Of a DNA stretch of 59,852 bases, positions 769 through 41,039 are shown piece after piece. The stretch lies in contig JAQWNP010000015.1 in NCBI GenBank assembly GCA_029268515.1, positions 1 through 59,852 of the forward strand. Reading direction: 5' to 3'. The notes beneath the pieces were generated by a model. It was not told the DNA's origin, ran no database searches, and saw only the letters and a program-made list of their open reading frames with translations. The stretch's first letter is position 1; each line of letters begins with the position of its first letter. This DNA is from Phycisphaerales bacterium. GTDB taxonomy: Bacteria; Planctomycetota; Phycisphaerae; Phycisphaerales; SM1A02. A program made the translations under genes and the position numbers.

Positions 769-1383
769 TTACGGCAAGTCAACTGGGATGAGCACGCGAT
801 TGATCGAGTGAACACGACCATTGCTGGCACGAATGTTGAATGGCCAAGTCACTGATGGGTTTCGGAGATTTGGATCGTTATCGATTAGTGTAAAGAAGAA
901 GGGTTGGAAGGTGGCTCCAGCAGCAAGCGTCGTCAAAGGCTGCTGCAAAAAGGTCGCAAAGATCAGATTGATTGGACGGATATTGCCGTCAACGACGTGA
1001 TAAAGAAGGATGTCAGTCAATACTGGAATTGGATCGCCACCACCGAGTTCTGTAAGAGCGCCAACAAGGAATAGCCAGATTGCCTCTTCGTCATAACCAC
1101 CTTCGTAACCAAGATCACGAGCAAGACGGAAAAAGGCCCTGTCATTTGGAGCAAAGAGGGTCAGTGTCACGTCTGGATCGGCAAGTGCTTCAGCGAGCCC
1201 AGCGGTTACCACGGCTGTCAGCAGAATGTCATAGTCGCGCTTTTTGTTATCGAATTCGCCACCACTTCTAGAGATGACAATATCTGTGATGGTGCCATTA
1301 CCAGAAGATGCTTGGGCTTGCGGGACAGCAATGAATGAGATGGCAGCAACAACGGCGCAACAGCATGTACGTAGGGATAGCAT
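769..1383 (-). CDS. Secreted single-domain fasciclin (FAS1) protein
   Basis: Predicted 204-residue exported protein with one FAS1 (beta-Ig-H3/fasciclin) domain. The chosen start gives a signal peptide (MLSLRTCCCAVVAAISFIAVPQAQA cleavage region) and has AGGAG nine bases upstream; the open frame extends further 5' but would bury the signal. FAS1 landmarks are TLFAPNDRAF (H1-like), DILLYHVVDG and the terminal NGRVHSINRVLIPVD (H2-like). FAS1 domains mediate adhesion or bind unknown ligands outside the cell. In Rhodobacter a fasciclin-type protein belongs to the singlet-oxygen stimulon. Its promoter carries the same bracketed 9-bp repeats as the photolyase-linked FAS1 gene at 33368. The 5' UTR contains a GACGCC/GGCGTC hairpin (1430-1446). 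Confidence 0.88.
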   Translation of the reverse strand: MLSLRTCCCAVVAAISFIAVPQAQASSGNGTITDIVISRSGGEFDNKKRDYDILLTAVVTAGLAEALADPDVTLTLFAPNDRAFFRLARDLGYEGGYDEEAIWLFLVGALTELGGGDPIPVLTDILLYHVVDGNIRPINLIFATFLQQPLTTLAAGATFQPFFFTLIDNDPNLRNPSVTWPFNIRASNGRVHSINRVLIPVDLP

Positions 1384-1477: not shown

Positions 1478-1568
1478 ATCGTTCAAATCGTTCAATTAGT
1501 TAGGAATATACCCTCTGTAACAGATGAGTCAATAGGTTATTTGTAAATATATCGTTCAAATCGTTCTC
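1478..1568 (-). promoter_or_regulatory. Promoter bracketed by tandem 9-bp elements (copy A)
   Basis: On the minus strand two abutting copies of TTGAACGAT occupy 1478-1495 and a second pair (one exact copy, one 7/9 copy) occupies 1551-1568; the pair starts are 73 bp apart. Between them is a good sigma-70 promoter: TTGACT (1527-1532), 16-bp spacer, TATATT (1505-1510). The layout matches 33250-33340 almost exactly. The downstream pair would sit just after the transcription start. Likely operator of the CarH-like regulator encoded at 32331-33209 (inference). Confidence 0.75.
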
Positions 1569-1616: not shown

Positions 1617-1748
1617 ATGACCTCTTTGCCGATCAGCTACACGCCAACGACCCGCGGTTTAATTGACTTAAATCGCCAGCGACAGCGGCTTCTTGATGCC
1701 TACACTGAAACCACAGAAAGTGAGGCTGACCATGTCGGGTTTTCATAG
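1617..1748 (+). CDS. Possible 43-residue small ORF overlapping the SDR start
   Basis: ATG 1617 to TAG 1746-1748 encodes a charged small protein (…LIDLNRQRQRLLDAYTE…). It sits six bases after a G-run and ends inside the SDR start region in another frame, which would allow translational coupling. No family is recognised. It may be chance; I include it because the amino-acid pattern looks helical and protein-like. Confidence 0.25.
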   Translation: MTSLPISYTPTTRGLIDLNRQRQRLLDAYTETTESEADHVGFS

Positions 1749-2454
1749 CGTTGTCATTGGAGGAGCTGGCGGTATTGGTCGAGCGCTTGTTCCTCGACTC
1801 CGAACCGCAGGACACAATGTCACCATCATCAGTCGTGATGGTGATAACCATGAGAACCTTGATGCAAACTGCATCGTTGGTGATGCGCGAGATATTGATG
1901 GACTGACCACAATTGTTCAGACAATTGGTGCAAGTCAACCCGTTACTGGAATGGTTTGCCTAGCTGGATCTATTCTCCTCAAACCAGCGCACATGACTTC
2001 CGCAGCGGAATGGTCACACACGCTTGAAACAAATCTGACGACTGCTTTTGCTTGTGTCCATGCTGCAGGAAAATGCATGCGCGGCGGTGGAAGTATTGTG
2101 CTGACTTCAACCGTTGCGGCTCACACTGGATTGCCAAATCATGAAGCAATTGCCGCTGCCAAGGCTGGAGTAGAGGGACTCACGAGAAGCGCGGCTGCAA
2201 CATATGCAAGCCGAGGCCTTCGATGTAATGCTGTTGCGCCGGGGCTTGTTGATACCCCATTAGCAAACCAGATCACTGGATCGGAACGTGCTCTCGAGCA
2301 CTCAAGAAAAATGCATCCGCTCGGACGTATTGGACAACCAGCTGATGTTGCAGCTGCCATTGCATGGCTTCTGTCGAGTGAAAGTGACTGGGTCACTGGA
2401 CAGGTACTGGGCATTGATGGAGGTTTGGGGCAGACGCGGGCTCAATCCAAATGA
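1732..2454 (+). CDS. SDR-family oxidoreductase lacking the catalytic Tyr
   Basis: Classical short-chain dehydrogenase fold, 240 residues. The start ATG 1732 follows GTGAGG and gives MSGFHSVVIGGAGGIGRAL, where GGAGGIG is the NAD(P)-binding glycine motif. NLTTAF and the Ser-containing IVLTSTVAA strand follow, then the region where YxxxK should be reads IAAAK, so the proton-donor Tyr is Ile. The C-terminal NAVAPGLVDTPL and VTGQVLGIDGGL are typical. A subgroup with HEAIAAAK in this position exists among bacterial SDRs, so this may be its normal state; activity is uncertain. The stop overlaps the next gene start (ATGA), so the two are translationally coupled. It is divergent from the FAS1 gene and could share its operator. 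Confidence 0.85.
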   Translation: MSGFHSVVIGGAGGIGRALVPRLRTAGHNVTIISRDGDNHENLDANCIVGDARDIDGLTTIVQTIGASQPVTGMVCLAGSILLKPAHMTSAAEWSHTLETNLTTAFACVHAAGKCMRGGGSIVLTSTVAAHTGLPNHEAIAAAKAGVEGLTRSAAATYASRGLRCNAVAPGLVDTPLANQITGSERALEHSRKMHPLGRIGQPADVAAAIAWLLSSESDWVTGQVLGIDGGLGQTRAQSK

Positions 2455-2879
2455 ATAAGAAGTATGTCGCACCATGGATGACTCCAGTGCTCATCCTAGC
2501 TGGCCTCTATAACATTGCGTTTGGTGTTTGGGTTGTTTTATGGCCTCATTGCGCCTTTGAGTTGGTTGGCATGGAAGTCCCCCGCTATCCATTTCTCTGG
2601 CAATGCATCGGAATGATCGTTGGTGTTTATGGATTGGGCTATTTAGCCTCAGCTCGCCGTCCACTACGCCACTGGCCCATCATTATGGTGGGACTGCTTG
2701 GAAAAATACTCGGGCCAATTGGTTTCTTACAAGCAGCATTGAGTGGATCGATTACTTGGTCATTCGGCGTCATCATTATCACAAATGATCTCATATGGTG
2801 GCTACCCTTTGCACTCTTACTTCGGGCCGCTTGGCTCAACTCAACCGCATTAGTTCTCGATAAATCTCAGGATCAGTAG
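2451..2879 (+). CDS. Small four-helix membrane protein, coupled to the SDR
   Basis: 142 residues with four hydrophobic segments (about 11-32, 48-67, 75-96 and 103-128). The start overlaps the SDR stop by four bases. No signal peptide or catalytic motif is seen and I do not recognise a named family. It resembles small integral proteins co-encoded with oxidoreductases. Its last 44 bases overlap the tail of the convergent dpaL gene (2836-2879), so the two mRNAs would be complementary at their 3' ends. Confidence 0.75.
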   Translation: MNKKYVAPWMTPVLILAGLYNIAFGVWVVLWPHCAFELVGMEVPRYPFLWQCIGMIVGVYGLGYLASARRPLRHWPIIMVGLLGKILGPIGFLQAALSGSITWSFGVIIITNDLIWWLPFALLLRAAWLNSTALVLDKSQDQ

Positions 2880-29855: not shown

Positions 29856-30728
29856 TTACCTTGCTCCGTGGTCTATTTTAGAGCGCAACTGCTGAGCCAA
29901 ATAGTGCGACATTGATTCACGATAAAAAACATCCCCATGCTGATCATCAAAATACGCCTCTTTTGGAATCGCTTGCCGTATAGCGACATCCAGTTCACCT
30001 GAACTTGGTAGTTTTTTAAACGCAATTTGATACGGCTTGGTCACCGATGCTGTAAACGTGAACTCAACCTCTCTGGTTTTGTCATCAATTGTTGCGATCA
30101 CCAGCGCTGCTGAACGGCCAATGTGTGTCAAGGAGCGTAAATCCATGAAGACACGTCTTTTCAACCATGCTTTAGGTAAATGGATACTACGAAGTATGTC
30201 ACCGGGGCCTAAAGCATTATCAAGAATACCCCTGTGAAAATCGATTGACGAAGACTTGATCGGGTCTTCCCCATGAGGCCAGATGGTGTACTCGGCATGC
30301 AATGCTGCTGCCATGCTGATCATTGAACCAGCTGGTAGCGACATACAAATATTACCGCCCACTGTCGCTTCATTGAATATTTTGAATGATGCAGAAAGCG
30401 CCTTTGCACAATTCTCAAACAACTCGCAAGCATGCCAATCAGATGGATACTGATACTCAAGTAATTCGTGAATGCGACATGTGGCAGCAATCTCAAGACC
30501 AGATTCACTGACTTGTATTGGATCCCAATTCAGTGAAGTCAAATCAATGATTGTTTCAATGCCTGGGGCATCGTTACTGTCAACTTGCCCAGGTGTGATT
30601 CGCCCAGTCATCTGTGGTTCTGAATACAACCAGGTTCCACCCGCCAAGAATGCACTGCCCGGCTTCCATTGCCGAGCCTGTTCATCATTCGCTGGCTTTA
30701 AATAGTCACGGACGCCTGCGATATTCAT
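29856..30728 (-). CDS. FAD-binding subunit of the molybdenum hydroxylase
   Basis: 290 residues. Start 30728 has AAGGTG six bases upstream. FAD-binding motifs of the CO-dehydrogenase/xanthine-dehydrogenase medium subunit are FLAGGTWLYSEPQ and the second loop ATVGGNICMSLPAGSM. It accepts electrons from the Fe-S clusters of the neighbouring subunit and passes them to NAD+ or another acceptor. It is first in the operon, with a 12-base gap before the hydroxylase gene. Confidence 0.9.
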   Translation of the reverse strand: MNIAGVRDYLKPANDEQARQWKPGSAFLAGGTWLYSEPQMTGRITPGQVDSNDAPGIETIIDLTSLNWDPIQVSESGLEIAATCRIHELLEYQYPSDWHACELFENCAKALSASFKIFNEATVGGNICMSLPAGSMISMAAALHAEYTIWPHGEDPIKSSSIDFHRGILDNALGPGDILRSIHLPKAWLKRRVFMDLRSLTHIGRSAALVIATIDDKTREVEFTFTASVTKPYQIAFKKLPSSGELDVAIRQAIPKEAYFDDQHGDVFYRESMSHYLAQQLRSKIDHGAR

Positions 30729-30923
30729 GACATCACCTTGTAAACCCGTTCTTAAACCAAGCTTAAACAAACTACTTGGGACTAAACTTGCACCTATTCA
30801 ATTAGCTGTAGTAACAGTAAAACAGAACTACGGTACTGGATATTGTAAGATTGGTGATACCAGAATGATATCTGCAGTCACTTTTTATCAGCACCTTTCT
30901 CGAACATACCTTTGGATTTTTTG

Positions 30924-32330: not shown

Positions 32331-33209
32331 TCAGCCAATCGACTTGGCTAATTCACTCAATGTCGCCATTGAGGTGTGAATACTGAGGCAAGGGAGCGCA
32401 TCAAGTGATAATTCTCCAACCTGCCGACCACCGACTGCGAGCAACACGCCAAGGGCCTGGCAATCATGTAACAGGTTATTGAGCTCTTCAGAGCGAGCAA
32501 CGGGATCTTTTACACTACTGATTGAAACCCACACCAGCTCTGGACGTTCCTCTTTGGGCAAATCAATACTGTTCATCCGAATCACCTCTACCGGGGTATT
32601 CGGTCCAATATTGCTGACCGAACCACCACAATCCTCAAGAACACTGGCGATAAATGCAGATGGCAATTGATACGGATCTCCAGCGAGCCCACCACCGGTT
32701 GCCGTAAAAAGCGGTTCTTGATGAACGGTCATTGAGCGGAGCGTGTGTACGACAGCCATTAAAATCTGCGTCGCACGATGTTCTATCAGTATTCCTTGAG
32801 TCGTATGCCCATCCGATCCTATTGAGTGCATCGCTGGACGAACGAAGCGATCTGCAAGTTCTGCCATGGAACAACCAGCTAAAAACTCTGATATCAGCAA
32901 CTGCTGAGTTGCATCCTGATCTCCAGCTCTTAAAGATGCCTCGAGCGCTTCTACCGGCGAGGTACTTGCCGAGACATCTGCGCCGATGAGATGCTCAATG
33001 CCTAACACCGCCGGATCGCGAATCTCCAGCCTGAGAGCCCGAACACCACTGAGCGCGTCAAGGACAGTAATTCTGCGATGACCTCCCGCCGTGCGAGTTG
33101 ATTGCAGGTGCCCCTGATCCACCCACCTCTTTACGGAAGATTCGCTCACACCAACTGCCTTGGCGAGATCACGAGGCGAAATCGTGCGGGATGTCCAGAC
33201 ATCAGCCAT
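32331..33209 (-). CDS. MerR-HTH regulator with B12-binding-like fold (CarH/LitR-related)
   Basis: 292 residues. The MerR/excisionase-type HTH (residues 8-60) has DLAKAVGVSESSVKRWVDQG and GGHRRI. A helical cap follows (about 85-160), then a Rossmann-like B12 domain (165-290). CarH and LitR repress light-induced genes in the dark while bound to adenosylcobalamin. Here the Glu-His of the cap motif (143-144) is kept but the Trp ten residues earlier is Asp133, and the DxHxxG-type loop that supplies the cobalt-ligating His reads GLAGDPYQLP, without His. It may therefore sense something else or act without B12. It is divergent from the FAS1-photolyase operon and next to the tandem 9-bp sites. Confidence 0.85.
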   Translation of the reverse strand: MADVWTSRTISPRDLAKAVGVSESSVKRWVDQGHLQSTRTAGGHRRITVLDALSGVRALRLEIRDPAVLGIEHLIGADVSASTSPVEALEASLRAGDQDATQQLLISEFLAGCSMAELADRFVRPAMHSIGSDGHTTQGILIEHRATQILMAVVHTLRSMTVHQEPLFTATGGGLAGDPYQLPSAFIASVLEDCGGSVSNIGPNTPVEVIRMNSIDLPKEERPELVWVSISSVKDPVARSEELNNLLHDCQALGVLLAVGGRQVGELSLDALPCLSIHTSMATLSELAKSIG

Positions 33210-33249: not shown

Positions 33250-33340
33250 TTGAATGTTTTGAACGTTTTTTTTGGGATATTGGCTTGACGAAGCCGTAAA
33301 TATACCTATCCTTCACACAGACTTGAACGATTTGAACGAT
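33250..33340 (+). promoter_or_regulatory. Promoter bracketed by tandem 9-bp elements (copy B)
   Basis: Upstream pair TTGAATGTT-TTGAACGTT (33250-33267) and downstream pair TTGAACGAT-TTGAACGAT (33323-33340) have starts 73 bp apart, as at 1478-1568. Between them: -35 TTGACG (33285-33290), 16-bp spacer, -10 TATCCT (33307-33312). The downstream pair covers the region just after the expected start of transcription. A spacing of 73 bp is close to seven helical turns, so both pairs face the same side and could be bridged by a tetramer. The binding protein is probably the adjacent regulator. Confidence 0.78.
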
Positions 33341-33367
33341 ATTTACCACTTTCACAAGGATTTCACC

Positions 33368-34297
33368 ATGCTCCTCGCCTCAGTCATCACAGCCTCAGCA
33401 ATCTTCGCACAGTGCGATAGCACGAACCAATCAGTACAAACCTCGATCAGCCAACCTGCACCCACAATTGTCGAAGTCGCTGCCAGCAATCCAGACTTTT
33501 CAACACTCGTCGCTGCGATCAATGCTGCAGAACTGACAGAGACATTGGCAGGCCCCGGCCCTTTTACGGTGTTTGCTCCAACCAACGCTGCCTTTGCCAA
33601 GTTGAAGCCAGGAACCGTCGAGATGTTGGTCAAACCAGAAAACAAGCAAGCGCTTACGGATATTCTGACGTACCACGTGGTTCCAGGGAATATGCCCGCC
33701 AGCAAGGTAATGTCGACCAACGGCGGACAGACGGCGGGTGGACGCTGGGTCCAATTTTCGCGGTCCGGAGACGCGGTCATGGTCGACGACGCCAAAGTCG
33801 TGACAGCTGACATCGTCTGCAAGAACGGCACCATTCATGTGATCGACACAGTGATGATGCCATCCGACGCCAGCATTGTAAAAACAGCAAAAGAAGCTGG
33901 GTCATTCAAAACACTGCTTGCTGCGGCTCAGGCGGCTGGACTTGCAGAAACGCTTGATACAAAGGGTCCGTTTACTGTCTTCGCACCCACCGATGATGCA
34001 TTCAATGCCCTGGGCAAAGAGACGATTGCGAATCTGCTGAAGCCTGAGAATCGTGACCAGCTTGCGACTATTTTGAAGCATCATGTGGTTGCAGGTCGGG
34101 TGTACTCACCAACCGCAGTCTCTGCTGGCTCCGCAACATCGCTCGCAGGCACGACTCTTCCGATCACGGTTCAGTCAAATGGAGCCATGGTTGGCAAAGC
34201 CAAAATCATTGCAACTGATATTGACACAAGTAACGGCGTCATCCACGTCATTGATCGCGTCATGATCCCAACCATGAAAACGACGCAATCGAACTGA
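33368..34297 (+). CDS. Secreted fasciclin protein with two FAS1 domains
   Basis: 309 residues. ATG 33368 (AAGGA seven bases upstream) begins a short signal sequence (LLASVITASAIFAQ). Two FAS1 domains follow, about 35-170 and 172-305. Each has the H1-like box (PFTVFAPTNAAF and PFTVFAPTDDAF), a YHVV or HHVV strand and the H2-like end (GTIHVIDTVMMP and GVIHVIDRVMIP). The protein acts outside the cytoplasm; its ligand is unknown. It heads the photolyase operon and has the bracketed promoter, which links it to light or photo-oxidative stress. Confidence 0.92.
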   Translation: MLLASVITASAIFAQCDSTNQSVQTSISQPAPTIVEVAASNPDFSTLVAAINAAELTETLAGPGPFTVFAPTNAAFAKLKPGTVEMLVKPENKQALTDILTYHVVPGNMPASKVMSTNGGQTAGGRWVQFSRSGDAVMVDDAKVVTADIVCKNGTIHVIDTVMMPSDASIVKTAKEAGSFKTLLAAAQAAGLAETLDTKGPFTVFAPTDDAFNALGKETIANLLKPENRDQLATILKHHVVAGRVYSPTAVSAGSATSLAGTTLPITVQSNGAMVGKAKIIATDIDTSNGVIHVIDRVMIPTMKTTQSN

Positions 34298-34382: not shown

Positions 34383-34397
34383 TGAAGGATGAAAACA

Positions 34398-35897
34398 ATG
34401 AACCAACCAACTGAATCATCCAAACCAAAGCCTCGCATCGCCATACTCGGCGGAACCGGCTATGTCGGCTCTCGGCTCATATCACAGCTGCTGCGAAGCG
34501 GGTACCAGGTGCACTGCCTGGCTCGAAGTCCTCAAAAGCTCACTTCACGAGCATTCCCGAACCAAGCGAACCTGACCGTCGCAAAGTGCAATCTTGAAGA
34601 TACCGACGATATTGCCAAACAACTTGAAGGCCAGGAAATCGTCTTCTACTTAGTTCATTCGATGCGTTCAGCCGGGCGGTCTTACGCCACGGTCGACGAT
34701 GACCTTGCTAAAAACACCGCTCAGGCTGCTGAGCGAGCAGGTGTCCAGAGAATTATTTATCTCGGGGGACTTGGTGAGTCACAGGATCGTCTTAGTGAGC
34801 ATCTCCAATCGCGACGCGATGTTGAAGAGAGCCTCGCCGCTACGTCCATACCTCTGACCACGCTTCGAGCGGCCATGATTATTGGCAGCGGATCAGCGTC
34901 GTTTGAGATTCTTCGCTATCTCGTCGAGCGACTACCGATCATGGTCACACCAAGATGGGTTCGCACCGAGTCGCAACCAATTGCCATCGCTGATGTACTG
35001 CGATTACTTGAGGCATGCATTGAACATCCGGAGACCAGTGGCCAAACTTTAGATATCGGAGGGGCTGATGTTGTCGATTATCAATTCCTCATGCGACTGG
35101 TTGCCGTTCGACTTGGCCTCAAACCAAGACGCGTCATTCCTGTCCCCATCTTAACACCACGCCTCAGCGCTCTTTGGATCCATCTCGTCACGCCAGTCGA
35201 CGCTGCTATTGCCCAACCTCTTGCTGCCGGACTGAGCAACCGTGTTGTCTGTCGAGATAACGCTTCCCACGAATTGCTTGGCCGGAAACCTCTGACGGCC
35301 GCTGCTGCTATTGATGCTGCTTTGGAGCACACGCGTGACGACAGCGTTGAATCATCTTGGACAGATGCCGGCCCGTTGCCAGGAGATCCTGACTGGTCAG
35401 GCGGTCGCGTCTACACGGATTCACGCTCGATCACCGTCGATGCACCTGTTCATGCAGTCTATGAGGCCATTACGCTGATTGGTGGAGGCCACGGCTACTA
35501 CGCTGCAGACTGGCTCTGGAAACTTCGTGGCATCATGGACCGCCTTGCAGGAGGCCCTGGCTTGCGGCGTGGTCGGCGAACCGAACGCGTCATTAGCACC
35601 GGCGATGCCCTGGATTTCTGGCGGGTGCTTCACGCAGATCGTGACCGAAGATTGATCCTCTTTGCAGAAATGAAGCTGCCTGGCACGGCCACGCTCGAAT
35701 TCTCTCTGGAACAAACTGATGAAAACACCTCAATAGTTCAAACCGCACGTTTTCGTCCCAGAGGACTCTTTGGTATCGCTTATTGGATGGCGGTCAAACC
35801 ACTTCATGGAATTGTCTTCTCTGGCATGCTCAACGGGATTGTCCGGGAATCCCGAAGGCTTGCCGAGTCACTACCTGGGAGGCAAACCGATGTGTGA
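34398..35897 (+). CDS. SDR/NmrA-like oxidoreductase with DUF2867 domain
   Basis: 499 residues. ATG 34398, eight bases after GAAGGA, is preferred to ATG 34389. The N-terminal atypical SDR domain has RIAILGGTGYVGSRL and continues with IIYLGGLGE and TTLRAAMIIGSGSASFE. The C-terminal half (about 330-490) is DUF2867, an SRPBCC-like domain (YAADWLWKLRGIMD, DFWRVLHADRD, RFRPRGLFGIAYW). This two-domain protein often sits with photolyases and LitR/CarH-type regulators. Its reaction is unknown. The stop overlaps the photolyase start by eight bases. Confidence 0.88.
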   Translation: MNQPTESSKPKPRIAILGGTGYVGSRLISQLLRSGYQVHCLARSPQKLTSRAFPNQANLTVAKCNLEDTDDIAKQLEGQEIVFYLVHSMRSAGRSYATVDDDLAKNTAQAAERAGVQRIIYLGGLGESQDRLSEHLQSRRDVEESLAATSIPLTTLRAAMIIGSGSASFEILRYLVERLPIMVTPRWVRTESQPIAIADVLRLLEACIEHPETSGQTLDIGGADVVDYQFLMRLVAVRLGLKPRRVIPVPILTPRLSALWIHLVTPVDAAIAQPLAAGLSNRVVCRDNASHELLGRKPLTAAAAIDAALEHTRDDSVESSWTDAGPLPGDPDWSGGRVYTDSRSITVDAPVHAVYEAITLIGGGHGYYAADWLWKLRGIMDRLAGGPGLRRGRRTERVISTGDALDFWRVLHADRDRRLILFAEMKLPGTATLEFSLEQTDENTSIVQTARFRPRGLFGIAYWMAVKPLHGIVFSGMLNGIVRESRRLAESLPGRQTDV

Positions 35898-37260
35898 ACT
35901 TGTATGGTTTCGACATGATCTACGAGTGGCCGAGCAACCGGCGCTCAACGCAGCCTTGCGATCCTCTCAAGAGGTCGTCGGCCTTGTCATTGTGGATCGA
36001 ATCCAATGGAAAGCTCATGGATGGGGTATCCCATGCATGACCTGGTATACAGATACGGTACGAGCACTTGCGGATCAACTTGCCGCAATGGGCATTGTAC
36101 TTCGGGTTGAAATTGCAACGACATGTAAATCTCAATGCACCATCGTCTCAGAAGTGGCTCAAGACATGAAAGCGAAGTGCGTGCATGTCGGGCGTCAGGC
36201 TGGCTTTGATGAGCGAAGACGTGATCAGAACATCAAAAGAGAACTCAGTGATGTCGGAATCAAATTGGTTGAGCATACAACTGAGTCAATTCTTCCAGTG
36301 GAGCTCATCCGTAGCAAGTCAGACCTCCCCTACTCGGTGTACACCCCCTTTAGACGTGCCTGGGACGCTCAACTTAGTCAGGTGGGATTGCCTGATCTAG
36401 ATAAAGCGCATGCCTCGGCAACGCCAATAGCGAGTCCGCAAGTTCCCTATATCGATCTTGGTGAAGCGACTTGGAGTCATACCGCTTGGTGTGCTGGCAC
36501 AGCTTCGGCGTTAGAAAGGCTCAATACCTTTCTCCAAGGACCTATTGATCACTACCACACCAACCGTGACAGACCTGACCTCAATGGCACCAGCACCCTG
36601 TCACCTTGGCTTGCTGTTGGAGCAATCTCACCTGTCATGTGCCTTCGACCGTTAGTTGAGCGCTATGGACTGGACCCAGAACAATGGCCCGATGGACCGC
36701 GTGTATGGCGACAAGAACTGGTTTGGCGCGAGTTCTACCGACATGTCATGATGACACGTGACAAAGTTTCACAAAATCAGCCGATGCAGGATTGGACTGA
36801 AAAACTCGAATGGCGAAGTGACGCTGATGCACTCAATGCTTGGACGAATGGCCAAACTGGTTTTGATATCATCGATGCCGCTATGATTCAGTTGAGAGAG
36901 CTTGGTTGGATGCACAATCGACTTCGCATGGTTACTGCAATGTTTCTGACTAAGAACCTGATGGTCGACTGGCGTCTCGGCGAGCTACACTTTTCCAAGC
37001 ATTTGATTGACTATGATTTCGCGAGCAACAACGGCGGCTGGCAGTGGGCGGCTTCGACCGGAACCGATGCGGCACCTTACTTCAGAATATTCAACCCAGA
37101 GTCACAGGCAGAAAAGTTCGATCCCGATCGGCAATACCAAGCGCAATGGCTCAATGGGCATAGCCGCCCCACGCAAATTGTTGATCTAAAGACGACAAGA
37201 GCGTTTGCGATCCAAGCTTTTAAGTCTGCCAAGGCAGGAGCAACTGAAAGTGACAATTGA
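35890..37260 (+). CDS. phrB: Class I deoxyribodipyrimidine photolyase
   Basis: 456 residues. ATG 35890, preceded by GGGAGG, begins MCELVWFRHDLRV, the photolyase N terminus; the open frame extends further 5' but overlaps the SDR. The FAD-binding C-terminal domain is nearly canonical: ELVWREFYRH, GWMHNRLRMVTAMFLTKNL, VDWRLGE, then NNGGWQWAAS and APYFRIFNP. Trp residues corresponding to the electron-transfer chain are present. The enzyme repairs cyclobutane pyrimidine dimers using blue light. It lies inside a coupled operon with the SDR and the SRPBCC gene. Confidence 0.95.
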   Translation: MCELVWFRHDLRVAEQPALNAALRSSQEVVGLVIVDRIQWKAHGWGIPCMTWYTDTVRALADQLAAMGIVLRVEIATTCKSQCTIVSEVAQDMKAKCVHVGRQAGFDERRRDQNIKRELSDVGIKLVEHTTESILPVELIRSKSDLPYSVYTPFRRAWDAQLSQVGLPDLDKAHASATPIASPQVPYIDLGEATWSHTAWCAGTASALERLNTFLQGPIDHYHTNRDRPDLNGTSTLSPWLAVGAISPVMCLRPLVERYGLDPEQWPDGPRVWRQELVWREFYRHVMMTRDKVSQNQPMQDWTEKLEWRSDADALNAWTNGQTGFDIIDAAMIQLRELGWMHNRLRMVTAMFLTKNLMVDWRLGELHFSKHLIDYDFASNNGGWQWAASTGTDAAPYFRIFNPESQAEKFDPDRQYQAQWLNGHSRPTQIVDLKTTRAFAIQAFKSAKAGATESDN

Positions 37261-37738
37261 ACCTGATGTCCAACGCGAAAATGGTGACTTTGTCTTGCGA
37301 GCGAGAGCGCGCGTTGAACGTCCCCGTGATGAAGTATTCGATTTTTTTTCAAATGCGCGTAATCTAGAACGACTCACACCAGAGTTTCTGAATTTCAAAG
37401 TGCTCACGCCTGGGGAAATCAAAATGCACCAGGGCGCCTTGATTGACTACAAACTTCGTGTTCGAGGAATACCTATCCGGTGGAGAACAGAGATTACCGC
37501 ATGGGACCCGCCCTACAAATTTGAGGACAATCAGCTCAAAGGCCCATATCGCAAATGGCTTCACCAACATATCTTTATAGAGGATGGTGATAGCACCATC
37601 ATGGATGACATCGTCAGGTACCGCGTTTGGGGCGGTCGCCTGATTAATCGATTGATGGTTGAACGCGACGTACGCAAGATCTTCGCCTATCGAGGCGAAG
37701 TACTTGCTTCCTTTTTCCCAGGCACAAAGAACGAATGA
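37250..37738 (+). CDS. SRPBCC-family protein of the photolyase operon
   Basis: 162 residues. The start is GTG 37250 with AGGAG nine bases upstream, inside the last codons of phrB (11-base overlap). Motifs EVFDFFSNARNLERLTPEF, IDYKLRVRGIPIRWRTEI and GPYRKWLHQH match the SRPBCC proteins that accompany photolyases and DUF2867 SDRs. It would bind a hydrophobic ligand in the cytoplasm; the ligand is unknown. Its stop overlaps the next gene start. Confidence 0.85.
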   Translation: MTIEPDVQRENGDFVLRARARVERPRDEVFDFFSNARNLERLTPEFLNFKVLTPGEIKMHQGALIDYKLRVRGIPIRWRTEITAWDPPYKFEDNQLKGPYRKWLHQHIFIEDGDSTIMDDIVRYRVWGGRLINRLMVERDVRKIFAYRGEVLASFFPGTKNE

Positions 37739-38181
37739 CCACCGAATCGATACTGCTCATTGCACAGGCATTTGCCAGTTGTGGCATGTTTGGCCTTATA
37801 TGGCTTATCCAGCTCGCTCACTATCCGCTCCAAATTCATGTACCCGCCGATGGTTTTGTTGACTATCAAGCATCACACATGTTTCGTGTTACTTTTGTCG
37901 TCGGTCCATTAATGCTCATCGAGTTGATTGCCGCGGTTTGGCTCGTCCAATTACCGCTTCAAGGAATGATGCTCTTGGCTGCCTGGATTGGTGTGGCTCT
38001 CATTGTCATCATCTGGCTCTCGACCGCTGCCTTACAGATCCCCTGCCACTTCAAGCTAGAGCGGGCCAAGGACGATGCCGTCATCGCCAGATTGGTACTC
38101 ACCAACTGGGTCCGAACCATTGCATGGACAGGCCGCGCCGGCATTACAGTATGGATGCTCGCGATGGCGATGGCCAACTAG
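37735..38181 (+). CDS. Small four-helix membrane protein of the photolyase operon
   Basis: 148 residues with four predicted membrane helices and the conserved-looking pieces IQLAHYPLQ, WLSTAALQIPCH and NWVRTIAW. The start overlaps the SRPBCC stop (ATGA). This type of protein recurs at the end of photolyase/SDR clusters, although I know of no assigned activity. It is the last gene before the BlaI promoter. Confidence 0.75.
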   Translation: MTTESILLIAQAFASCGMFGLIWLIQLAHYPLQIHVPADGFVDYQASHMFRVTFVVGPLMLIELIAAVWLVQLPLQGMMLLAAWIGVALIVIIWLSTAALQIPCHFKLERAKDDAVIARLVLTNWVRTIAWTGRAGITVWMLAMAMAN

Positions 38182-38252: not shown

Positions 38253-38280
38253 TAGACTGACGAATTTCTTCGTGTATACT
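38253..38280 (+). promoter_or_regulatory. Promoter and probable BlaI operator
   Basis: -35 TAGACT (38253-38258), 16-bp spacer and -10 TATACT (38275-38280). An inverted repeat ACGAA-TTTC-TTCGT (38260-38273) lies in the spacer, where repressor binding would block polymerase. It fits autorepression by the BlaI-like gene downstream (inference). Confidence 0.5.
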
Positions 38281-38313
38281 CTCAACGATATCCCACACGA
38301 GGCAATACTCCAT

Positions 38314-38703
38314 ATGACCCAGAAAAAGAGCGCACGCAAACCAACCGATGCCGAATGCCAGATCCTGAATGTCATCTGGAGACGCGGCAGTGCTACTGTG
38401 CGCGAGGTCTATGATGATCTCAGTGACGAGAGTGAGATTGGCTATACAACTGTATTAAAGTTCATGCAGATCATGACAGACAAGGGCCTTTTGAGCCGCG
38501 ATACAAACGTGCGACCCCAGATTTATAAGGCCTGTCACTCACAAAAGAAAACACAGAAAACAATGGTTGCAGATCTTCTTGACCGAGCCTTTTGTGGCTC
38601 TCCAGGCAATCTTGTTCTCCAAGCACTTTCAATGCGAAAAACCACGCCGGAAGAACTTCAGGAAATACGTGACTTGGTCAAAAAACTGGAGCGGCAACAA
38701 TGA
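38314..38703 (+). CDS. BlaI/MecI/CopY-family repressor
   Basis: About 129 residues. ATG 38314 begins MTQKKSARKPTDAECQILNVIW, matching the family start; the frame extends further 5'. The winged helix is clear (ATVREVYDDLSDE, YTTVLKFMQIMTDKGLL), followed by the dimerisation helices. BlaI repressors are inactivated by cleavage triggered by a partner M56 protease. The stop overlaps the M56 gene (ATGA), forming the usual pair. No beta-lactamase is next to it. Confidence 0.93.
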   Translation: MTQKKSARKPTDAECQILNVIWRRGSATVREVYDDLSDESEIGYTTVLKFMQIMTDKGLLSRDTNVRPQIYKACHSQKKTQKTMVADLLDRAFCGSPGNLVLQALSMRKTTPEELQEIRDLVKKLERQQ

Positions 38704-41039
38704 ATGAAGCAACGCTCTTTTCCTACCTATGGCCCACACTGGGACTGACAATCGCCCACTTCCTATGGCAGGGCTTCTTGATCGCGGCCATTACGGCACT
38801 TGTGCTCGCCATCTTAAGACGAGCCACTCCAACATCTCGTTACATGGTGAATTGTGTTTCCATGATCTTTGGTCTTGTTGTTTTTGTAACCACTTTCATT
38901 CTGATCTTCTCACAAAGTGGTGAAGCACCCTTATCAGGGCTCGATAGCGACCTCCTGATGTCTTCAACCATACTTGCTGATTCACCTGTATCAGAAGCAC
39001 AACATCAAATCGATATGACAATGAGCATCATCGATGAAAGCACTGGAACATTGCCTGCTGAAAATGTCACCTTCTGGCAAATGGCAACCGCGCTCTGGAC
39101 TATTAATACCCTGGCCTGGATATGGCTTGCCGGCGCTCTCTTTATGTTGACGCGCTTCGCGGTGCAGTGGAATACTGCTCGCTATTTAAAAACCAATCTA
39201 GTCATCACTCCTGATCAAAAATGGCATCGCCTCTTTGATGAAATCAAAGCAAAACTGGGCATCAATAAAGGCATCAAAATACTTCAAAGTAGCCTCGTTG
39301 AAACGCCAATGGTTATTGGATGGATGAGTCCAGTGGTACTGATTCCGACATCAGTCTTTACCTCGCTGACAACAGATCAAATCCGAATGATCCTAACTCA
39401 TGAACTTGCACACATTCGCCGTTATGACCACCTGGTCAATATCGCCCAAGGTGCTATTGAAATAATGCTCTTTTTTCACCCAATGACTTGGTGGCTCTCA
39501 AAGAATATTCGTATCGAAAGAGAATATTGCTGTGATGACGCCGCAATAACAGTAACTAGCAAACCACGATTATTTGCTGAAGCACTTATCGAACTTGAAG
39601 CACTTCGCATTAAACGTCAAAACCAACTGCCAAATACCGCACTCGCACTGACCGGAGGTTCGCTCATGTCCCGTATCAAACGCATCGTTAATCCAGTTTC
39701 ATCTCAAGACGCAAATCGACTTCAATCGAAAACACCGCTGGCCCTACTCCTGACGCTACTTTTACTGATGAGCGGTATGACCTATGTTGCAAGCACTGCC
39801 TACGCCACCGCGAATGCTGGCAATGAGACCAGTGAGGCGATCCAAGATCATGACGGGCATAGCCACGCAGATCATGACGACCACGAGCATCATGATGACC
39901 ACGGCCATCACGACGAGCATGACATTGACTTTGAACACTTCCCTGATGACCAAGAGCTTCGCGACATGATTGCGGAAGGTGTAGAAGAAGGTGAAGTGAG
40001 TCGCCGACAGGCTGGTGACATTATGACACTGCACAAAGAGCTCCAAACACAGATCGCCGATGGTGAGCTATCAAAGCAGGAAGCCGCTCGCGTATTTCAT
40101 GAAGAAGTACTCCAACTCCTCGGCTGGAACGACCATGACGAAGATGAAACCGATTCACGCAGAATGATTTTCCCAACCCATGAAGCGCTGAGATCACGTA
40201 TTGAAGATGGCCTCAGAGAAGGCGACGTTAATCGCGAACAGGCTGCACAAATTATGGCCATTTACGAGCGATTCCAAGCCGGCATCGAATCAGGCCGAAT
40301 GTCACATGAAGACGCTGGCCCAGCATTTCGTAATCGTGTCATGGCGATGCTCGATGAAGAAAATGGTCATGGGCGAGAAGATCACCAGCACAGGGACGAC
40401 CATCATGACCAAGGGCACGACCATCATGACCAGGGGCACGACCGCATCATGGCTGCCCGCATTGGTGGCATGCTCATGACCCTCGGCGAAGCCGTTGAAT
40501 CTGGACGCATGTCTCCAGAAGATGCAATGCGGCAGATCATGGAAACCGCTGAACGCATGGGCATGATGCAGCACCATGAACATGATGAACGTCATGCTGA
40601 TTTTGAGCGACAAGAAAGAGAACTCATGGAAGCCGTTCGCCGTGGTGATATCAGTGAAGAAGATGCCCATCGACGCCTGAAAGAGATGGAGCGGCACATG
40701 ACGGGCCGTGATCAAGATCATCAAAGGCGTGGAGATCAAGGCGATGGTATGTCAAAAGAAGACTACAACCGTGCGGTCGATCGACTCAAGAGAGGTGTGG
40801 AATCAGGCAGAATCTCTGAAGAAGATGCAGACCGGCGTATCGAGGAGATGAAGCGAGAAATGAAGCGCCATTCACGTGGCGACAACGATCACATGAATGC
40901 CGATCAGCAAGAAGAGTACATGAAGCGCGTGGCTCAGCGACTCGAAAAGGCCGTTGAAAGCGGACGCATGACTGAAAGAGAAGCCAAAGATAAATACGCT
41001 GAGATGGAGCGAGAGATGCATGAACGCATGAGAGACTAA
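38700..41039 (+). CDS. BlaR1-like M56 metalloprotease with His-rich repeat tail
   Basis: 779 residues. The N-terminal part has about four membrane helices and the zinc motif H234-ELAH in LTHELAHIRRYDHL, with EREYCCDDAA as the third-ligand helix. The last membrane segment (LLLTLLLLMSGMTYVAST) is followed, instead of a penicillin-binding domain, by a His/Asp-rich linker (HDGHSHADHDDHEHHDD) and then some 340 residues of SHOCT-like helical repeats (AVESGRMSPEDA, AVRRGDISEEDAHRRL, GVESGRISEEDADRRI), interrupted by a second His-rich stretch. The tail should be periplasmic. It could sense metal ions or envelope state and then inactivate the BlaI repressor. It resembles the repeats in the protein at 16732-17775. 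Confidence 0.9.
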   Translation: MNEATLFSYLWPTLGLTIAHFLWQGFLIAAITALVLAILRRATPTSRYMVNCVSMIFGLVVFVTTFILIFSQSGEAPLSGLDSDLLMSSTILADSPVSEAQHQIDMTMSIIDESTGTLPAENVTFWQMATALWTINTLAWIWLAGALFMLTRFAVQWNTARYLKTNLVITPDQKWHRLFDEIKAKLGINKGIKILQSSLVETPMVIGWMSPVVLIPTSVFTSLTTDQIRMILTHELAHIRRYDHLVNIAQGAIEIMLFFHPMTWWLSKNIRIEREYCCDDAAITVTSKPRLFAEALIELEALRIKRQNQLPNTALALTGGSLMSRIKRIVNPVSSQDANRLQSKTPLALLLTLLLLMSGMTYVASTAYATANAGNETSEAIQDHDGHSHADHDDHEHHDDHGHHDEHDIDFEHFPDDQELRDMIAEGVEEGEVSRRQAGDIMTLHKELQTQIADGELSKQEAARVFHEEVLQLLGWNDHDEDETDSRRMIFPTHEALRSRIEDGLREGDVNREQAAQIMAIYERFQAGIESGRMSHEDAGPAFRNRVMAMLDEENGHGREDHQHRDDHHDQGHDHHDQGHDRIMAARIGGMLMTLGEAVESGRMSPEDAMRQIMETAERMGMMQHHEHDERHADFERQERELMEAVRRGDISEEDAHRRLKEMERHMTGRDQDHQRRGDQGDGMSKEDYNRAVDRLKRGVESGRISEEDADRRIEEMKREMKRHSRGDNDHMNADQQEEYMKRVAQRLEKAVESGRMTEREAKDKYAEMEREMHERMRD

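Follow-up and report, generated by a model that had tools for sequence, protein, structure and literature searches.

CarH, an AdoCbl photoreceptor and repressor known from Thermus thermophilus, Bacillus megaterium and myxobacteria, joins a MerR winged helix to a four-helix/Rossmann B12 fold. In Thermus, its gene is divergent from those of phytoene synthase and photolyase, and its promoter operator is made of tandem direct repeats. These operators are 11-bp repeats of the form nnnnTnnACAn, on which the B12-fold domain assembles a direct-repeat binder that is dismantled by light (PMC9304148, in part). CarH forms its tetramer in dependence on AdoCbl, and light dissociates it. The key AdoCbl residues named for CarH are Trp131, Glu141, His142 and His177, and the related CtMerR of Chloracidobacterium thermophilum binds AdoCbl, responds to light and has had an alternative DNA site suggested for it (PMC11796333, in part). 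CarA of Myxococcus xanthus is a CarH-like repressor that works without B12 and has CarS as its antagonist, and its operator is described as two inverted repeats, 11-bp repeats being discerned as well (PMC9304148, in part). The class II LitR proteins of Pseudomonas (PplR1 and PmlR2) repress light-inducible genes from sites of the form T(G/A)TACA-N12-TGTA(C/T)A, whose two halves lie 18 bp from each other, or two steps of 9 bp, and PmlR2 has one site over the -35 and one past the start of a TTGACT-N16-TATGAT promoter (PMC9758184, in part). BldC of Streptomyces, a small developmental regulator with the repeat AATTXXXX(C) and with no effector or dimerisation domain, binds 9-bp direct repeats in varying number head to tail (PMC5859096, in part).

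The locus that we describe here has features of several of these systems. With CarH it shares the MerR winged helix and B12 fold of its regulator, a light-gene setting and an operator of tandem direct repeats, and the CarH core TnnACA is close to the T-nn-ACG held in the unit TTGAACG found here. It differs from CarH in a period of 9 rather than 11 bp, lag 11 being no commoner than other lags, and in the position of the operator, which lies mostly just past the -10 and not over the -35. The DNA-binding domain is less like that of CarH than like that of BldC (PDB 6AMA and 6AMK), which is the closest after that of CtMerR, and BldC would also share the period and the variable number of units. In contrast with BldC, the regulator is a protein of 292 aa with a B12-fold domain, and the unit is TTGAACGWT. 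The 18-bp step of class II LitR parallels the 9-bp period, although the LitR half-site is TGTACA, only the four-helix part of the B12 domain is present and a LOV protein gives the light signal, whereas the regulator here has the Rossmann part.

As the original prediction had supposed, the operator is unlike the CarH and LitR operators set out in the available parts of PMC9304148 and PMC9758184. In the open-licence PMC literature we found no paper joining CarH with BldC or giving the operator letters in four spellings, none linking MerR, fasciclin, photolyase and light, and none linking CarH, operator direct repeats and photolyase. A widespread 9-bp tandem operator of a CarH-related B12-fold repressor is thus apparently undescribed.

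Tandem 9-mers at two promoters of the window

The window, i.e. the whole stretch of 59,852 nucleotides that was analysed (Phycisphaerales bacterium, assembly GCA_029268515.1, contig JAQWNP010000015.1), holds two FAS1 promoters with two pairs of tandem 9-mers each (Table 1). At the FAS1-photolyase promoter, a base-by-base check gave TTGAATGTTTTGAACGTT for operator A and TTGAACGATTTGAACGAT for operator B; at the unlinked FAS1 promoter the upstream pair A, which has two mismatches in its outer unit, reads GAGAACGATTTGAACGAT, and B is again TTGAACGATTTGAACGAT. The pairs start 73 bp apart at both promoters and enclose a -35, a 16-bp spacer and a -10 that were recognized by eye, and the remaining spacer sequence differs between the two. 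Apart from the two mismatches, all of this had been predicted, and it held exactly to the base. Classical MerR activators have an inverted-repeat operator within a 19-20 bp spacer; such a site was rejected, since the repeats at both window promoters are direct and lie outside the 16-bp spacer.

Table 1. Promoter elements and genes at the two FAS1 loci of the window
Feature	Position	Strand	Score or basis
Operator A, FAS1-photolyase promoter, two tandem 9-bp units 5' of the -35	33250..33267	+	26.4 bits
-35 TTGACG, FAS1-photolyase promoter	33285..33290	+	by eye and script
-10 TATCCT, 16-bp spacer, FAS1-photolyase promoter	33307..33312	+	by eye and script
Operator B, FAS1-photolyase promoter, 10 bp past the -10, on the expected start site	33323..33340	+	29.3 bits
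Operator A, unlinked FAS1 promoter	1551..1568	-	22.6 bits
-35 TTGACT, unlinked FAS1 promoter	1527..1532	-	by eye
-10 TATATT, 16-bp spacer, unlinked FAS1 promoter	1505..1510	-	by eye
Operator B, unlinked FAS1 promoter, 9 bp past the -10	1478..1495	-	29.3 bits
Regulator, BldC-like MerR winged helix and CarH-like B12-fold domain, 292 aa	32331..33209	-	
FAS1 (fasciclin) gene	33368..34297	+	ATG picked by eye within ORF 33272-34297
NmrA/DUF2867 protein	34389..35897	+	
DNA photolyase ORF; true start probably further in	35770..37260	+	
SRPBCC (Polyketide_cyc) protein	37205..37738	+	
148-aa protein, probably membrane-bound, without Pfam match; relatives' homologues 3' of this operator	37735..38181	+	
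Unlinked FAS1 gene	769..1383	-	ATG picked by eye within ORF 769-1458
Divergent short-chain dehydrogenase; may also be a target of operator A at 1551-1568	1693..2454	+	
142-aa protein after the dehydrogenase	2451..2879	+	

The rarity of the pair was assessed in the genome (3,195,770 bases in 20 contigs), with the pattern written backwards as the control. With up to one mismatch, the 18-bp pattern TTGAACGNTTTGAACGNT occurred at three places genome-wide, all in the two window promoters named by the original prediction, and the backward control gave none, so that chance repeats were rejected as an explanation. With up to two mismatches there were eight places (control 4), namely the four window pairs and one each on contigs C6, C10, C11 and C17, each of the latter lying within an ORF of 150 aa or more. 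A looser 17-bp pattern gave seven places with up to two mismatches (the four target pairs, those on C6 and C11 and one on C16) and reached background level with up to three (63 places against 58 in the control), and the single 9-mer with one mismatch occurred in the window at chance level (23 found, 18.9 expected). It is the tandem pairing and its position that are special, not the single 9-mer. An exact-pattern scan of viral contigs gave 17 stretches. A weaker pair of the window, TTGAATATTTTGAATGAT at 30373-30390 (+; 18.0 bits), lies inside ORF 29856-30770 and 5' of a transporter gene, and is probably a chance occurrence.

The operator and the regulator gene in related genomes

Homologues of the window regulator (E < 1e-20) were present in 20 of 61 genomes, i.e. 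the window's own and 60 relatives. The operator, with up to one mismatch, was found in 12 of these 20, compared with two of the 41 genomes that have no regulator (Fisher p = 4.7e-6), and in those two the sites lie inside ORFs. In the same-genus genome G001, which is 89% complete, neither operator nor regulator was found.

The period of the repeats was examined by a motif-free test, in which self-match at a given lag was scored in the 300 bp 5' of regulator genes in three sets (L150, with an upstream stretch shorter than 200 bases, was excluded from the 80 named loci). Here and in the matrix and promoter tests below, the shuffles preserve base composition only. Lag 9 was detected at 19/22, 18/19 and 48/60 regulators (2, 3 and 11 after shuffling) and lag 11 at 8/22, 4/19 and 15/60 (3, 2 and 10 after shuffling); the coding control was also raised at lag 9, as at other multiples of three (11/22, 8/19 and 27/60). 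With duplicate genomes removed, 59 of 71 regulators of less than 60% identity displayed lag 9, against a mean of 14.3 and a maximum of 20 in 20 shuffles, and lags 18 and 27 were also up, at 34 and 28. As 21 of the 71 had lag 11 and the other lags averaged 18.4, a CarH-type 11-bp operator was rejected.

A matrix with the consensus wTGAACGWTwTGAACGWT, which was trained on the regions that it scored, was applied to 98 upstream regions. On the strand that points away from the regulator it scored above 11 bits in 85 of them, compared with 6/98 on the opposite strand and 0/98 after shuffling; 12 of the 98 had no cluster above 6 bits. The 98 contain five genomes twice (G036/L105, G032/L124, G040/L128, G007/L147 and G039/L173), and without these duplicates the count is 80/93. 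In independent planctomycete genomes, which share 40-mers neither among themselves nor with the training regions, 8/12 regions were above 11 bits and 4/12 below, with 0/12 both on the other strand and after shuffling. In the 333 kb around 20 regulators, 38 of 39 sites above 15 bits lie within 350 bp 5' of a regulator, although these are the training regions themselves. Many clusters have three to five units. Regulators of this branch were found in planctomycetes, Acidobacteriota and bins that are labelled deltaproteobacteria, Opitutia, Omnitrophota and Sericytochromatia.

The 9-bp period of the operator, its link to the regulator gene, its placement at promoters and the genes that follow it are observed directly, and we infer, at a probability of roughly 0.85, that the tandem 9-mers serve as operator for the regulator at 32331-33209, which would repress through BldC-type head-to-tail reading of 9 bp. 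The original prediction of one regulator for both loci, most probably the adjoining MerR/B12-fold protein, gains from the occurrence of the repeats beside its gene in several phyla and from their co-occurrence in the 61 genomes. In the proposed mechanism, short winged helices of BldC type would bind the direct repeats head to tail, at least two per cluster, and the CarH-type C-terminal domain would keep the protomers together; the simplest model thus joins the head-to-tail reading of BldC with the light-labile assembly of CarH. Operator B is predicted to sit on the start site of a complete and normally spaced promoter (TTGACN-16-TATNNT), so that the bound protein would be a repressor, and repression is its likely action. 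Operator A would be a second cluster 5' of the -35; its counterpart in many relatives adjoins the -10 of the promoter that drives the regulator gene, which points to autoregulation. FAS1, photolyase and their partners would then be turned on when light or photo-oxidative stress releases the repressor. B12-fold regulators form a large group that is known mostly from metagenome bins, and for these the 9-mers would provide a concrete operator.

Cluster spacing and promoter architecture

In relatives, the cluster on the operon side mostly begins no more than 10 bp from the -10 of a TTGACN-16/17-TANNNT promoter, this position being uncertain where the promoter score is low, and a script gave spacers of 16-18 bp at these promoters. 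The distance between clusters fell into two ranges, 62-81 bp with a mode of 70-73 (24 rows from 22 genomes, the window included) and 96-253 bp (37 rows from 34 genomes), the latter often with one cluster per divergent promoter. The fixed spacing of 73 bp, or seven helical turns, in the original prediction therefore does not hold, and helical phasing as a general rule was rejected because it is absent in the 37 wide rows (R = 0.08 at 10.5 bp).

One explanation, to which we give somewhat less than an even chance, is that no bridging occurs and that each promoter has its own operator: B would repress the FAS1 operon and A a divergent promoter, either that of the regulator or, at the unlinked locus, that of the dehydrogenase, with the 73 bp as a by-product of compact divergent promoters. 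A promoter towards the regulator with a score of at least 8 abuts cluster A in 18 of the 37 wide rows and in 0/37 when shuffled (shuffled scores are for the regulator side), which argues for it. So does the presence of dehydrogenase and 142-aa homologues behind this operator in other genomes: the former were found in 3/98 regions, one of them on the wrong strand and those of G023 and L144 in operon direction, and the latter 3' of the regulator's operator region in 3/98 (G041, L158 and L170). However, a good regulator promoter abuts A in only 1/24 close rows, which is also the shuffled figure (1/24), no convincing dehydrogenase -35 was seen by eye next to 1551-1568, and at L294 and L308 two clusters surround one promoter with no regulator gene.

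The other explanation, in which a single regulator would span two sites separated by about seven helical turns and the mechanism would centre on the 73-bp loop, we regard as possible, with the odds against it. As A and B bracket one promoter at this distance in the window's clade, one tetramer (2+2 domains) could clamp the promoter. Consistent with bridging are the 73 bp at both window promoters, the tight range in the 24 close rows, with a 10.5-bp phase concentration of R = 0.57 (jitter P ~2e-4), the near lack of a good regulator promoter beside A in these rows and the paired clusters at other unlinked promoters of the clade, spaced by 71 bp at L294, 60 bp at L081 and 52 bp at both L308 and L324. 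Yet the close rows are kin: in the tree, 22 of the 24 belong to one marine Phycisphaerales clade together with the window's protein (G055 and L153 lie elsewhere), so that the bracket looks derived. Furthermore, a 9-bp period fits the spacing equally well (R = 0.61), as a choice of repeat register would give, and the 37 wide rows have no 10.5-bp phase preference. Within the same clade, other unlinked targets (L295, L301 and two rhodopsin loci) have a single cluster, so the bracket is not required everywhere, and clusters of three to five units fit a strict 2+2 tetramer poorly. Bridging is thus a fair hypothesis for the window's clade only, with one operator per divergent promoter as its main rival. 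In this clade's part of the tree, proteins that lack Trp131 are scattered among those that keep it.

The regulator, its relatives and the genes behind the operator

The only Pfam match of the regulator is a MerR helix-turn-helix, and a B12-binding domain was not found at E values up to 0.001. Its structural model (pLDDT 95.1, pTM 0.90) has CtMerR (8jbs/8jbt) and CarH as top folds, and a profile of 60 homologues matches CtMerR and CarH (the latter at 2e-14). The predicted structure and the profile thus both indicate a MerR winged helix, a four-helix bundle and a Rossmann B12 fold. In a phmmer search of the PDB with the first 62 residues, we obtained CtMerR (2e-8), BldC (1e-4; 6ama and 6amk) and RacA (0.01), and did not find CarH at E values up to 1. 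A plasmid search with the window regulator gave no match; the Thermus plasmid MerR regulator that was matched by a relative's protein is taken to be CarH.

Numbered as in the Thermus protein, the pocket residues Trp131, Glu141 and His142 are present in 87, 101 and 100 of 102 homologues respectively (repeated genomes included), whereas His177, the cobalt ligand of CarH, is kept in two and replaced by Tyr in 95. The window regulator has Glu141 and His142 but neither the light-sensing Trp131 nor His177. By sequence, the system would be described as CarH-type repression with a BldC-like reading mode, departing from CarH in its AdoCbl pocket residues and 11-bp operator. For the CarH family, this would set two modules apart, the reading mode (9 or 11 bp) and the cofactor pocket (His or Tyr).

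CtMerR (PDB 8JBS/8JBT) is the best solved relative of the window regulator, and it keeps the cobalt-ligand His that the latter is without. Upstream of the Acidobacteriota homologues that are 96% and 90% identical to the CtMerR fragment lies GTGAACGTTTTGAACGTT (27.8 bits), and those at 82, 51 and 49% score 16.7 to 21.0 bits. All five CtMerR-like regions (L264-L268) are above 16 bits and all five proteins keep the His motif (GDLH, GDWH or GDFH). The homologues of 96, 90 and 82% identity share the operator with the window and, as L264, L265 and L266 carry it, a 9-bp site is predicted for CtMerR itself; this light-responsive protein of solved structure could then supply optogenetics with an operator of different specificity. 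Across the Acidobacteriota regions outside the training set, 8/18 exceeded 11 bits (L264-L268, L277, L278 and L290) and 10/18 failed on the expected strand, comprising eight upstream regions without a match (L271-L276, L279 and L280), L269, which scored 13.5 bits on the other strand, and L270, weak on both. These two belong to more distant MerR proteins, and L269, and more weakly L270, has reversed 9-bp repeats just past a -10-like element.

For the genes behind the operator, we surveyed 98 regions, mostly of up to 5 kb and including the window's own. Homologues of the window genes were those of FAS1 (32 regions), NmrA-DUF2867 (25), photolyase (21), SRPBCC (7) and the 148-aa protein (7). Alignment and a Pfam scan covered 100 of the 202 ORFs listed from these regions, and the matches among the 100 include fasciclin (10), GTP cyclohydrolase I (9), amine oxidase (9), photolyase (7), sigma-70 region 2 (6), MarC (4), TspO (2) and glutathione peroxidase (2). 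Unlinked sites were found before FAS1 (L079, L081, L086, L295 and L308), before a SOUL protein (L083), before rhodopsin (L321 and L327), before sigma-70-like genes (L082, L085 and L331), before genes without a clear link to light (a methyltransferase at L084, an ammonium transporter at L087, a HAD hydrolase at L088 and a molybdopterin enzyme at L329) and before genes without a Pfam match (L294, L326 and L333). The two homologues of the unlinked FAS1 gene that were found (G007 and G022) have no operator. It had been set beforehand that the original prediction would be refuted if related genomes had no such pairs before FAS1 or photolyase genes; pairs were found there, and the photo-oxidative gene set that it foresaw is borne out by photolyase, FAS1, GTP cyclohydrolase I and, in some genomes, rhodopsin.

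Rhodopsin genes were detected in six of 21 genomes searched, and three of them, in one subclade (G652, G653 and G014), have the operator, at 29.3, 23.6 and 24.3 bits respectively, while it is absent at the other three; rhodopsin was not found in the window's genome. In these three related marine Phycisphaerales genomes the operator lies directly 5' of the Bac_rhodopsin gene, the sites being at L334:3053-3070 (gene 2162-2977, -), at L327:2169-2186 (ORF to 3077, +) and in L342. The survey points to a light or photo-oxidative gene set in marine planctomycetes, reaching rhodopsin in one subclade, and with CtMerR as the analogy light is a plausible signal.

Whether AdoCbl would be the sensor is a separate matter. 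That the window regulator senses light through AdoCbl, as CarH and CtMerR do, with Tyr standing in for the His ligand without functional loss, fits the light-type genes, the retention of Glu141, His142 and Trp131 in most homologues and the finding that L264-L268 keep His and have the same operator. Set against this are the change of His177 to Tyr in 95/102, the additional loss of Trp131 in the window regulator and the Pfam result given above, and we consider an AdoCbl sensor doubtful. A much broader proposal, unlikely in its entirety, is that a branch of the CarH superfamily reads DNA in the 9-bp head-to-tail mode of BldC, with a cobalt ligand that is mostly Tyr, a Trp often lost in the marine clade, an operator split around the promoter and clamped by a tetramer, and a new chemistry (Tyr-ligated haem, another tetrapyrrole or no cofactor), and has photolyase, FAS1 and, in one subclade, rhodopsin under its control. 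Finally, it is very improbable that the 9-mers serve as promoter elements for an alternative sigma factor or are recognized by some other protein, as the sigma-70-like genes behind the operator at L082, L085 and L331 might hint, given that the repeats occur at this regulator's gene across phyla, co-occur with it and stand beside a standard -35 and -10.

The sigma-70-like genes at these three loci encode regions 2 and 4, suggesting a regulatory cascade. On the + strand of the window, at 38272-41039, a BlaI-type repressor (38272-38703) precedes an ORF recognized by eye as BlaR1/M56 protease-like, the long C-terminal part of which is rich in His, Asp and Glu.
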